Made by a program: the position numbers and the translations under genes. DNA of 64,000 bases from Pseudomonas fortuita. GTDB taxonomy: Bacteria > Pseudomonadota > Gammaproteobacteria > Pseudomonadales > Pseudomonadaceae. A model generated the notes under the pieces. It saw only the letters and a list, made by a program, of their open reading frames with translations. It had not been told where the DNA came from and searched no databases. Below, piece after piece: positions 4,761 through 37,859 of this stretch. The DNA lies in assembly GCF_026898135.2 (NCBI RefSeq), contig NZ_CP114035.2, forward strand, positions 3,451,501 through 3,515,500, in the 5' to 3' direction. Numbering within the stretch: position 1 is the stretch's first letter; each line of letters opens with the position of its first letter.

Positions 4761-5159
4761 ATGAGCACCCAGACCTACAGCATCTCCGACCTGTCCCGCG
4801 AGCTGGACATCACCACCCGCGCCATCCGCTTCTACGAGGAGCAGGGCCTGCTGAGCCCCGAGCGCCGAGGCCTGGAACGTATCTACACGGCTCGCGACAA
4901 GGTCAGCCTGAAGCTCATCCTGCGCGGCAAGCGCATCGGCTTTTCGCTGGCCGAGTGCCGCGAGCTGATCGAACTGTACGACCCCACCAGCGGCAACCTC
5001 AAGCAGCTCAACAGCATGCTGGCGAAAATCGCCGAACGGCGCGCACAGCTGGAACAGCAGATGCTCGACATTCACCAGATGCAACTGGAGCTGGACACCG
5101 CCCAGGAGCGCTGTGAGCAAGCCCTGGCCGCCACCCTGAACAACAAAGACAACCGCTGA
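4761..5159 (+). CDS. liuR: MerR-family regulator, LiuR-like
   Basis: A 132-residue MerR-family regulator. The N-terminal winged helix-turn-helix reads YSISDLSRELDITTRAIRFYEEQGLL, followed by the second wing (RRGLERIYTARDKVSLKLILRGKRIGFSLAECREL) and a dimerising coiled coil (KQLNSMLAKIAERRAQLEQQMLDIHQMQLELD). No metal-binding cysteines are present in the C-terminal loop, so it is not a metal sensor. It resembles LiuR, the regulator of leucine/isovalerate degradation, and is followed after 19 bp by HMG-CoA lyase, the last step of that route. The palindrome at 4703-4719 is a plausible site for it. The symbol is given by similarity and context. Confidence 0.8.
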   Translation: MSTQTYSISDLSRELDITTRAIRFYEEQGLLSPERRGLERIYTARDKVSLKLILRGKRIGFSLAECRELIELYDPTSGNLKQLNSMLAKIAERRAQLEQQMLDIHQMQLELDTAQERCEQALAATLNNKDNR

Positions 5160-5178: not shown

Positions 5179-6078
5179 ATGCCCTTGCCCAAAGAAGTCC
5201 GTCTGGTCGAAGTAGGCCCCCGCGACGGTTTGCAGAACGAAGCCCAGCCCATCAGCGTTGCCGACAAGGTGCGCCTGGTGGACGACCTCACCGAGGCGGG
5301 CCTGGCCTATATCGAGGTGGGCAGTTTCGTCTCGCCCAAGTGGGTGCCACAGATGGCCGGCTCTGCCGAGGTGTTCGCCGGTATTGAGCAACGCCCCGGC
5401 GTTACCTATGCGGCACTGGCGCCAAACCTGCGCGGCTTCGAGGACGCCCTGGCGGCCGGGGTGAAGGAAGTGGCGGTGTTCGCAGCCGCCTCCGAGGCGT
5501 TCTCGCAGCGCAACATCAATTGCTCGATCGGCGACAGCCTCAAGCGCTTCGAACCGATCATGGAGGCCGCGCACAACCACGGTGTGCGCGTGCGCGGCTA
5601 TGTGTCGTGCGTACTCGGTTGCCCCTATGAGGGCAAGGTCAGCGCCGAACAGGTGGCCCCGGTAGCCCGCGCCCTGCATGACATGGGCTGTTACGAGGTC
5701 TCGCTGGGCGACACCATTGGCACCGGTACCGCCGGCGATACCCGCCGCCTGTTCGAGGTGGTATCCGCCCAGGTGCCGCGCGAGCAACTTGCCGGGCACT
5801 TTCATGATACCTATGGCCAGGCGTTGGCCAACGTCTATGCCAGCCTGCTCGAAGGTATCAGCGTGTTCGACAGCTCGGTGGCCGGGCTGGGTGGGTGCCC
5901 ATACGCCAAAGGCGCTACCGGCAACATCGCCACGGAAGATGTGGTGTACCTGCTCCAGGGGTTGGGCATTGCCACCGGTATCGACCTGGACCGGTTGATC
6001 GCCGCCGGTCAGCGCATCAGCAGTGTGCTTGGCCGTGGCAATGGGTCGCGGGTAGCGCGGGCGCGCAGCGCGCATTGA
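5179..6078 (+). CDS. mvaB: Hydroxymethylglutaryl-CoA lyase
   Basis: Cleaves 3-hydroxy-3-methylglutaryl-CoA to acetyl-CoA and acetoacetate, the last step of leucine catabolism. The 299-residue product has the expected length. The TIM-barrel start VEVGPRDGLQNE contains the catalytic Arg-Asp pair. Residues VSLGDTIGTGTAG lie near 180, and the signature loop GLGGCPYAKGATGN carries the active-site Cys (C240). A GGAA ribosome site precedes the ATG. It is cotranscribed with the LiuR-like regulator. The other leucine-degradation genes (liuABCD) are not in this window. The CrcY RNA region starts immediately downstream. Confidence 0.95.
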   Translation: MPLPKEVRLVEVGPRDGLQNEAQPISVADKVRLVDDLTEAGLAYIEVGSFVSPKWVPQMAGSAEVFAGIEQRPGVTYAALAPNLRGFEDALAAGVKEVAVFAAASEAFSQRNINCSIGDSLKRFEPIMEAAHNHGVRVRGYVSCVLGCPYEGKVSAEQVAPVARALHDMGCYEVSLGDTIGTGTAGDTRRLFEVVSAQVPREQLAGHFHDTYGQALANVYASLLEGISVFDSSVAGLGGCPYAKGATGNIATEDVVYLLQGLGIATGIDLDRLIAAGQRISSVLGRGNGSRVARARSAH

Positions 6079-6110
6079 GTCACACGGGTGTCACATACGT
6101 GTGGGTGAAG

Positions 6111-6151
6111 TGTTACCGCCCCCACGTTTCACAGCAAAAAATCGGGTAACA
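6111..6151. promoter_or_regulatory. Possible CbrB enhancer half-sites
   Basis: TGTTAC (6111-6116) and GTAACA (6146-6151) are inverted copies of the half-site reported for the sigma-54 activator CbrB, about 85-125 bp upstream of the sigma-54 promoter. The spacing here is 29 bp, longer than the 14 bp I recall for P. aeruginosa crcZ, so they may be independent half-sites. Confidence 0.5.
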
Positions 6152-6232
6152 GGGAAACAAATCGACAAAATTTCAGGCAGCCTGATTTTGCCAAAAATTG
6201 CCAAACGCTTGATTTTAAAGGATTTAAAAAAG

Positions 6233-6250
6233 TTGGCACGCACCCTGCTA
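6233..6250 (+). promoter_or_regulatory. Sigma-54 (RpoN) promoter of crcY
   Basis: TTGGCACGCACCCTGCTA has the -24 GG (6235-6236) and -12 GC (6247-6248) exactly 10 bp apart, matching the TGGCACG-N4-TTGCW consensus except one base. The predicted start of transcription is near 6260. CbrAB-dependent sigma-54 promoters drive CrcZ/CrcY in Pseudomonas. Confidence 0.85.
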
Positions 6251-6259
6251 TATCTTTCG

Positions 6260-6610
6260 TACAAGAACAAAAAAAATGTGACACCCAATAAAAACAACAG
6301 GTAACGGCTCTGACATAACAAGAACAACACGGCAGAGGCGTAGCAAGCAGATCTTTTTGGAGTCGACACGCTTTTCAGGGGTACACCCCGCGGTCTGGCA
6401 CAGAACAATAAAACTACCTCGAGGTAGCTACAGCCAGGTTCGGATCAGCCATGATGAAAGCAGGTCAGCGCTCAAAAAAATACGTTTGCTCTTGACCCCG
6501 CATGGGGGTCGCACGCAACACCAAGGCAGGCTTACAAAAACAACAAAAAGCCAGCCTCAATAATAAAAAGAGCAAGCAGCAACGCTTTGGGGGGAGCTTC
6601 GGCTCCCCTT
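6260..6610 (+). ncRNA. crcY: CrcY-type small RNA (Crc/Hfq sponge)
   Basis: A predicted RNA of about 350 nt runs from the sigma-54 start to the hairpin at 6591-6608. It holds repeated A-rich CA motifs of the AAnAAnAA type bound by Hfq with Crc: around 6261-6277, 6288-6301, 6318-6330, 6404-6416, 6534-6549 and 6559-6570. In pseudomonads such RNAs titrate Hfq/Crc and relieve catabolite repression when the carbon source is poor. Position between mvaB and an mgtC-like gene is where I recall crcY in P. putida KT2440 (crcZ lies beside cbrB). The stretch is AT-rich compared with its surroundings and has no credible protein gene. Assigned from promoter, motifs, length and context, without alignment. 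Confidence 0.87.
6591..6608. terminator. crcY terminator hairpin
   Basis: GGGGAGC-TTCG-GCTCCCC is a perfect 7-bp stem with a stable TTCG tetraloop. It lies at the end of crcY and 16 bp before the stop of the converging mgtC-like gene, so it may serve both strands. The T-tract is short. Confidence 0.85.
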
Positions 6611-6623
6611 AGTGCTTCCCACC

Positions 6624-7130
6624 CTACTCCTCCTCCTTTTGCTTTTCCTCCCCCTGTCCTTCTACCTTTTCTACCAGCATGGGCATCGTGCCCAATACCA
6701 GCAGGGCCAGTACCGTGCTGATCAACGCCGTGGCTTCGCGCCCCATGCCGGCAGCGGTACCAATGGCTGCAGTCATCCATAGCCCTGCGGCAGTAGTCAG
6801 GCCTTTCACATGGCTGGTGTCCTGGCCGTTTCCTTTGAGAATGGTACCCGCGCCCAGAAAACCGATACCGGCGACGATGCCCTGGATCACCCTGCTCAGC
6901 GCCTGCTCATCAGCCCCGGCCATGCTGGGCGCCAGCACGAACAGGGCCGCACCCAGCGAAACCAGCATGTGGGTGCGCACGCCGGCAGACTTGCCTTTGT
7001 GTTCACGTTCAAATCCCAGCACAGCGCCAAGCACTGCCGCCATAAGCAGCCGCACGAGGATTCGCGTCACTTCGCGCTCATCGGTGACATCGGCGAACTC
7101 GGCCTGGATTGCTTGCCAGATGACGTCCAT
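6624..7130 (-). CDS. mgtC: MgtC/SapB-family inner-membrane protein
   Basis: A 168-residue membrane protein of the MgtC/SapB family with about four to five transmembrane segments. It has the family core LVRLLMAAVLGAVLGFEREHKGKSAGVRTHMLVSLGAALF and the IVAGIGFLGAGTILK block, then TTAAGLWMTAAIGTAAGMG. MgtC proteins modulate F-ATPase, Mg2+ homeostasis or intracellular fitness; they are often misnamed Mg2+ transport ATPases and have no ATPase domain. The start at 7130 is preferred because GGGGA lies 8 nt upstream; in-frame ATGs at 7145 and 7154 are alternatives. The C-terminal tail is very acidic and lysine-rich (EKVEGQGEEKQKEEE). It converges on crcY and has a strong hairpin in its leader. Confidence 0.85.
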   Translation of the reverse strand: MDVIWQAIQAEFADVTDEREVTRILVRLLMAAVLGAVLGFEREHKGKSAGVRTHMLVSLGAALFVLAPSMAGADEQALSRVIQGIVAGIGFLGAGTILKGNGQDTSHVKGLTTAAGLWMTAAIGTAAGMGREATALISTVLALLVLGTMPMLVEKVEGQGEEKQKEEE

Positions 7131-7167
7131 CACAGTTGTCCCCATGCTGACCATTGTATGGCCAGGT

Positions 7168-7203
7168 CCGGCCTTTTCGCTGGCGTGCCCGCGAAAAGGC
7201 CGG
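7168..7203. promoter_or_regulatory. Perfect 13-bp hairpin in the mgtC leader
   Basis: CCGGCCTTTTCGC (7168-7180) pairs perfectly with GCGAAAAGGCCGG (7191-7203) around a 10-nt loop, starting 37 nt upstream of the chosen mgtC start. It could be a leader control element or a REP-related palindrome; the sequence alone does not decide. Confidence 0.6.
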
Positions 7204-7319
7204 CCTGCCGTATGCAAGGGTTGACCTCAGCACACAGGGCAAAGTGCCGCTCAGCCTGTTGATGCAGCAACCAGCACCTCATTGCGGTCCACCCTGTACA
7301 ACCCGAGGAGGACTGCACC

Positions 7320-19165: not shown

Positions 19166-19194
19166 AATATTACTGCCTAGGCAGTGAATGTCAA
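19166..19194 (-). promoter_or_regulatory. marR-emrAB promoter with operator in the spacer
   Basis: On the minus strand a perfect -35 TTGACA (19194-19189) is followed after exactly 17 bp by -10 AATATT (19171-19166). The spacer is occupied by the perfect 14-bp palindrome ACTGCCTAGGCAGT (19172-19185). A second palindrome TCAAAGCTTTGA (19191-19202) overlaps the -35. Occlusion of the spacer by MarR would block RNA polymerase. Confidence 0.82.
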
Positions 19195-37772: not shown

Positions 37773-37859
37773 TGTGGGAGCGGGCTTGCCCCGCGAACAC
37801 CGGCAAAGCCGGTGCCATGCACCGCGGGGCCCCCTTCGCGGGACAAGCCCGCTCCCACA
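37773..37859. repeat. REP inverted pair after LysE-type gene
   Basis: Arms at 37773-37797 and 37835-37859 (core GTGGGAGCGGGCTTG and complement, 24 of 25 matching), around ACACCGGCAAAGCCGGTG which itself folds. Between convergent LysE-type and MFS genes, a likely bidirectional barrier. Confidence 0.85.

Follow-up and report, generated by a model that had tools for sequence, protein, structure and literature searches.

A crcY-type regulatory RNA behind mvaB in Pseudomonas fortuita and a probable order-wide family of cbrB-linked A-rich RNAs

A gap between protein genes of Pseudomonas fortuita, within a 64,000-nucleotide stretch of its genome (the window), almost certainly encodes crcY, an RNA that, by analogy with P. 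putida, would act as a CbrB- and sigma-54-driven decoy for Hfq and Crc. We make this assignment, which an earlier note on this DNA had proposed, because a full-length Rfam match, the P. putida gene order, six A-rich sites and the position of the copy in a tree all point to it. The window crcY itself is already known, a described Pseudomonas regulatory RNA of low surprise; the novel and moderately surprising part is a probable decoy RNA across the order. We think it likely, from sequence comparison, that a module of cbrA, cbrB, a sigma-54-driven A-rich decoy RNA and pcnB is ancestral to the order (in the GTDB sense) and no invention of the Pseudomonadaceae, that its RNA kept the promoter, CbrB-type half-sites and A-rich arrays but drifted out of reach of the Rfam model, and that the window crcY is a later duplicate within Pseudomonas. 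Our observations are of sequence, homology, promoter anatomy, gene order, conservation and the genes for the factors concerned.

The gap measures 545 bp, from the mvaB stop (6078) to the stop of an mgtC-like gene (6624), and its GC content is 47.5% against 63.5% for the 64-kb window, in keeping with the AT-rich gap of about 540 bp described in the earlier note. The locus is laid out as follows:

4761-5159, plus strand: open reading frame of a MerR-family regulator, in the position of PP3539 (LiuR-like)
5179-6078, plus strand: mvaB, hydroxymethylglutaryl-CoA lyase (NF004283, 494 bits against a cut-off of 246)
6261-6612, plus strand: RNA assigned to crcY (RF01675, 317.3 bits, model positions 1-398 of 398; Rfam match 6261-6643)
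6624-7217, minus strand: MgtC/SapB-like open reading frame, convergent to crcY (NF007431, 92 bits, below the cut-off of 214)

MerR-type regulators are the top NCBIfam matches of the first frame, every one of them below its cut-off; passages of PMC6292655 give the P. putida gene order as PP3539-mvaB-crcY, with PP3539 in the place of the MerR-type gene here. The covariance search that the earlier note had proposed, with the Rfam CrcZ/CrcY model, gave 317 bits from end to end against a gathering cut-off of 95 bits, and CrcZ (RF01675) is the sole Rfam family to reach its gathering score in the whole window. Position 6612, named in the note as the end of the RNA, is a plausible 3' end, and the Rfam match extends to 6643, overlapping the 3' end of the convergent mgtC-like gene. 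The RNA folds better than its shuffles (z -3.2; 0/100), and a search for plasmid homologues gave no match. A known global regulator of carbon use is here confirmed where protein-only annotation stays blank. Small open reading frames in the gap (67, 68 and 105 aa) were judged non-coding because the Rfam RNA spans most of the region. PhrS (RF01673) was rejected as an alternative, at 22.5 bits against a cut-off of 37 and over the 3' part only; this weak similarity, at 6528-6608, probably comes from a common A-rich stretch and TTCG hairpin.

Four sites lie upstream of the RNA:

6111-6116, plus strand: CbrB subsite F1, TGTTAC, exact
6146-6151, plus strand: GTAACA, exact, most likely CbrB subsite R', centred about -112 from 6261
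6202-6214, minus strand: IHF-type site, exact WATCAANNNNTTR, the only other one in the window being at 19192
6234-6249, plus strand: sigma-54 (-24/-12) promoter TGGCACGCACCCTGCT, GG-N10-GC, 10 of 11

Single hexamers are not rare in the window, whose plus strand holds six TGTTAC and three GTAACA; the TGTTAC at 6111 and the GTAACA at 6146 are its only such pair within 200 bp. We read the GTAACA as R' because it stands at the same distance as R' of crcY in P. putida KT2440, where, according to passages of PMC6296734, F1 weighed most and substitution of R' had no effect on expression. Both half-sites of the pair claimed in the earlier note are exact, then, the second being probably R' and dispensable in KT2440. 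The IHF-type site, overlooked in that note, matches what we take to be the IHF consensus and lies between the CbrB subsites and the promoter; IHF assists the activation of crcZ and crcY in P. putida, as passages of PMC6296734 report. The -24/-12 promoter is spaced exactly as had been claimed, and its end lies 11 bases upstream of the Rfam start; at 10 of 11 it is unique on the plus strand of the 64 kb, and the minus strand has one such site, at 37817.

How much of the RNA would come from this promoter? Much of the functional RNA might be cut from liuR-mvaB-crcY read-through, the sigma-54 promoter supplying the inducible part only. Passages of PMC6292655 describe, in P. putida, a CrcY processed out of a PP3539-mvaB-crcY transcript, and the window has the same gene order, with 182 bp from mvaB to 6261. 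We nevertheless consider this unlikely: the promoter is kept in 19/19 named copies behind mvaB, crcY-lacZ fusions in KT2440 are sensitive to the carbon source and to alterations of the subsites (passages of PMC6296734), and the crcY of A. vinelandii has other neighbours and, in passages of PMC6292655, no processed form detected. A share of crcY may arise by read-through and processing, as in P. putida, alongside transcription from its own sigma-54 promoter.

These named copies come from a set of 80 mvaB loci in named records, 30 of them from Pseudomonas or Halopseudomonas (L033-L061 and L067). An RNA copy lies behind mvaB in 19 of the 30 and in 0/50 of the others; since 11 of the 30 are without one, this placement is not genus-wide. 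A sigma-54 site scoring 10 of 11, F1 (at -139 to -153), R' (at -112 to -118) and five to seven A-rich clusters are present in 19/19 copies, and the IHF site is at the matching place in 16/19. Two genomes, G051 and G086, have tandem crcY-like pairs behind mvaB:

L179, 1605-1953 and 2141-2503: tandem crcY-like copies
L236, 3017-3375 and 3675-4047: tandem crcY-like copies

Within the RNA, the sites predicted to bind Hfq and Crc, a conserved core and a hairpin are arranged as follows:

6263-6276, plus strand: A-rich Hfq/Crc-type site 1, predicted, AAnAAnAA cluster
6287-6297, plus strand: A-rich site 2, AAnAAnAA cluster
6317-6327, plus strand: A-rich site 3, AAnAAnAA cluster within the loop of an Rfam stem
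6404-6411, plus strand: A-rich site 4, AAnAAnAA cluster
6482-6489, plus strand: conserved non-A-rich core ACGTTTGC, in 19/19 named crcY copies
6536-6549, plus strand: A-rich site 5, AAnAAnAA cluster
6559-6569, plus strand: A-rich site 6, AAnAAnAA cluster
6591-6608, plus strand: GGGGAGC-TTCG-GCTCCCC hairpin, likely terminator, which folds well and has a weak T tract

The six AAnAAnAA clusters in 6261-6612, which bear out the earlier count of about six A-rich motifs over some 350 nt, compare with a mean of 0.89 in dinucleotide shuffles, 0/2000 of which reach six. More than one cluster occurs in 0/2874 other 352-nt stretches of the window (both strands, in steps of 44, with the plus-strand neighbourhood of crcY excluded). 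The claim of a TTCG-loop terminator held in part: the hairpin is there with a weak T tract (TTAGTGCTT), yet a strict terminator scan rejects it.

The core, invariant in all 19 named crcY copies and present as CCGTTTGC in the crcZ of the same genome, raises another reading, that the RNA acts chiefly by base pairing through ACGUUUGC, or as an antisense to the mgtC-like gene whose 3' end the Rfam match reaches, and not as a decoy. We regard this as very improbable: the A-rich clusters are likewise kept in 19/19 copies, most of the core is predicted to be paired inside the RNA (6484-6493 with 6568-6577), and crcZ carries the core, yet its neighbours are cbrB and pcnB. On inspection by eye, certain loci from other families (L211, L219 and L233) show the core too. 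The form CCGTTT(G/A)C occurs once in the 60-genome census described below, in L255, a locus itself without promoter or A-rich clusters; from this rarity we conclude that the core is not shared by most families.

Titration of Hfq and Crc by the A-rich sites is the action that we attribute to the window RNA, and the genome has genes for factors that it would need. The single 6.3-Mb contig of P. fortuita carries two RF01675 copies, the window crcY behind mvaB and, apart from it, crcZ at cbrB:

G000:C1:5391978-5392374: crcZ, between cbrB and pcnB

Over 378 aligned bases the window crcY and this crcZ share 65% identity. Upstream of crcZ lie a 991-aa kinase and then a 481-aa sigma-54 regulator, which we interpret as CbrA and CbrB; pcnB (TIGR01942, 681 bits) lies downstream. 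Pfam finds HisKA, HATPase and PAS domains in this CbrA and, at E 0.001, no transporter domain. Genes for hfq and rpoN are present, as is one for a 259-aa exonuclease-III-type protein beside pyrE, a neighbourhood by which we take it to be Crc. In 30/30 other genomes the best match is a Crc-like protein (34-53% identity), compared with 30% for the next homologue in the P. fortuita genome itself. The labels CbrA, CbrB and Crc rest on position, length and homology, since NCBIfam gave no match so named in this genome.

On a poor carbon source, the CbrA kinase would activate CbrB, which would bind F1 and adjoining subsites upstream of crcY; IHF would bend the DNA so that CbrB could contact the sigma-54 polymerase at 6234-6249. 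The resulting RNA, of about 350 nt and starting near 6261, would bind Hfq, with Crc, at its six A-rich sites and so draw the complex off catabolic mRNAs, and with Hfq and Crc titrated, as likewise by crcZ from the cbrB locus, catabolite repression would be lifted. For the window crcY, we infer expression, dependence on CbrB, RpoN and IHF, and titration of Hfq/Crc from the work on P. putida.

The CrcY of P. putida KT2440, from a different genome and likened here through its published description, agrees with the window RNA in gene order, promoter type, F1 and R', family and A-rich sites. CrcZ (RF01675) shares with it the full-length match, sigma-54 promoter, A-rich sites, core and hairpin, but has the hairpin loop TTAG and is flanked by cbrB and pcnB. 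The same Rfam family takes in CrcX of P. syringae and further third copies. In a FastTree phylogeny of 148 unique copies, whose deeper branches are weakly supported, the window copy clusters with P. putida-group copies, from P. hunanensis, P. ceruminis and P. juntendi (0.77 support), and its nearest groups all lie behind mvaB (0.28-0.94). The window copy sorts with these mvaB-linked copies and not with the crcZ copies, 77 of which form one separate clade (0.72), the Halopseudomonas crcZ falling outside it. Thirteen third copies that we examined adjoin neither cbrB/pcnB nor mvaB and lie outside the 77-copy crcZ clade; these we infer to be CrcX. All 199 genomes drawn from the genus, our own included, have an RF01675 match: one in 22, two in 153, three in 22 and four in 2, with two of the matches in one four-match genome being fragments below the cut-off.

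Does the module extend beyond this family? Passages of a 2022 review (PMC8871633) call CbrAB unique to the Pseudomonadaceae, PMC6296734 calls it exclusive to Pseudomonads, and a marine metatranscriptome study (PMC5073097) counts cbrA and cbrB transcripts with hosts unnamed in its passages. In searches of open papers on CrcZ, CbrB or CbrAB outside Pseudomonas (Halomonas, Marinobacter, Oceanospirillales or Gammaproteobacteria), no title or listed abstract showed a report of such a locus. We find the layout cbrA-cbrB-sigma-54 site-A-rich stretch-pcnB in cbrB-linked regions of Marinobacter, Halomonas, Cellvibrio and others, regions which, set against CrcZ, are mostly below the cut-off of the Rfam CrcZ model or invisible to it. 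The genera with the candidate module include Halomonas, Marinobacter, Marinobacterium, Cellvibrio, Microbulbifer, Spongiibacter, Parahaliea and more. This suggests a similar carbon switch in related families thought to lack one; if so, CbrAB-controlled titration of Hfq would be a general carbon switch of the bacteria of this order. Should the order-wide locus prove real and active, catabolite control by A-rich Hfq decoys would be far older and more widespread, and open to testing in culturable strains of Marinobacter, Halomonas or Cellvibrio.

Of 244 order genomes searched with the Rfam CrcZ model, 51 gave matches, and the 12 that pass the cut-off comprise nine Pseudomonadaceae and three of family f2. 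One Pseudomonadaceae genome without a match (G366) has a cbrB that ends 261 bases from a contig end, by which its crcZ is probably cut off. We examined 27 loci outside the Pseudomonadaceae, the 26 best-scoring matches and a weaker one in G396, and three more inside. A sigma-54 site scoring at least 9 of 11 lies within -60 to +10 of the match in 26/27 (not L225), pcnB lies downstream in 27/27 and cbrB upstream in 22/27. The five without adjacent cbrB are L207 and L217, near a contig end, and three loci of family f8 (L222, L223 and L234), in which the A-rich RNA has its place next to pcnB and cbrB is found elsewhere in the genome. Ten loci read by eye show arrays such as ACAATAAAAATAA, and most have TGTTAC or GTAACA half-sites. 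Family f20 includes Marinobacter, as G365 and M. pelagius give the identical match in the same place. The Rfam model matched none of five named Halomonas/Vreelandella genomes (0/5), whose A-rich stretches were located by position behind cbrB.

Anchoring on cbrB widened the view. At E 1e-100 or better, 206/244 genomes have a CbrB relative; the weakest of these relatives may be paralogues. The census covered the sequence downstream of cbrB in 60 genomes from 26 families among the matches listed, favouring strong CbrB scores and omitting genomes already fetched; 5/60 had weak Rfam matches. A sigma-54 site of at least 9 follows cbrB in 56/60 on the forward strand and 5/60 on the reverse, against 6/49 and 4/49 in the 1 kb after mvaB taken as a control (L062-L112, with 2/51 dropped as too short). 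At least three A-rich clusters, in a count reached by at most 10 of 200 shuffles, follow cbrB in 42/60; without the shuffle condition, at least three occur in 3/49 control regions. The gene pcnB lies within 1.6 kb after cbrB in 49/60, and site, clusters and pcnB come together in 34/60. No A-rich cluster was found behind cbrB in L255, L311 and L312, and no sigma-54 site in L255, L277, L303 and L311. A strict terminator is present in 19 of 65 loci with promoter and pcnB, against 0.4 expected (10 shuffles each), probably a lower bound because the strict scan misses the window's own hairpin.

Of 28 named genomes, 18 gave a CbrB relative with E below 1e-170 and 63-68% identity: Halopseudomonas sabulinigri (Pseudomonadaceae) and 17 outside the Pseudomonadaceae, Halomonas, Marinobacter, Cellvibrio and Microbulbifer among them. 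The other 10 (two Colwellia, Shewanella, Cocleimonas, two Alteromonas, a Thiotrichaceae MAG, Glaciecola, Alishewanella and Rheinheimera) have only NtrC-type matches of about 41-44% identity. A sigma-54 site of at least 9 is present in 17/17 of the outside genomes, that of Neptuniibacter (AGGCAC) being doubtful, and at least three A-rich clusters, in a count reached by under 5% of 500 shuffles, in 15/17 (not Neptuniibacter, not a Cellvibrionaceae MAG). Neptuniibacter (L322) has a cbrB locus without a recognisable A-rich stretch. The gene pcnB is present in 16/17 (not Marinobacterium nitratireducens), and immediately upstream of cbrB all 17 have a CbrA relative, 46-51% identical over 949-991 residues.
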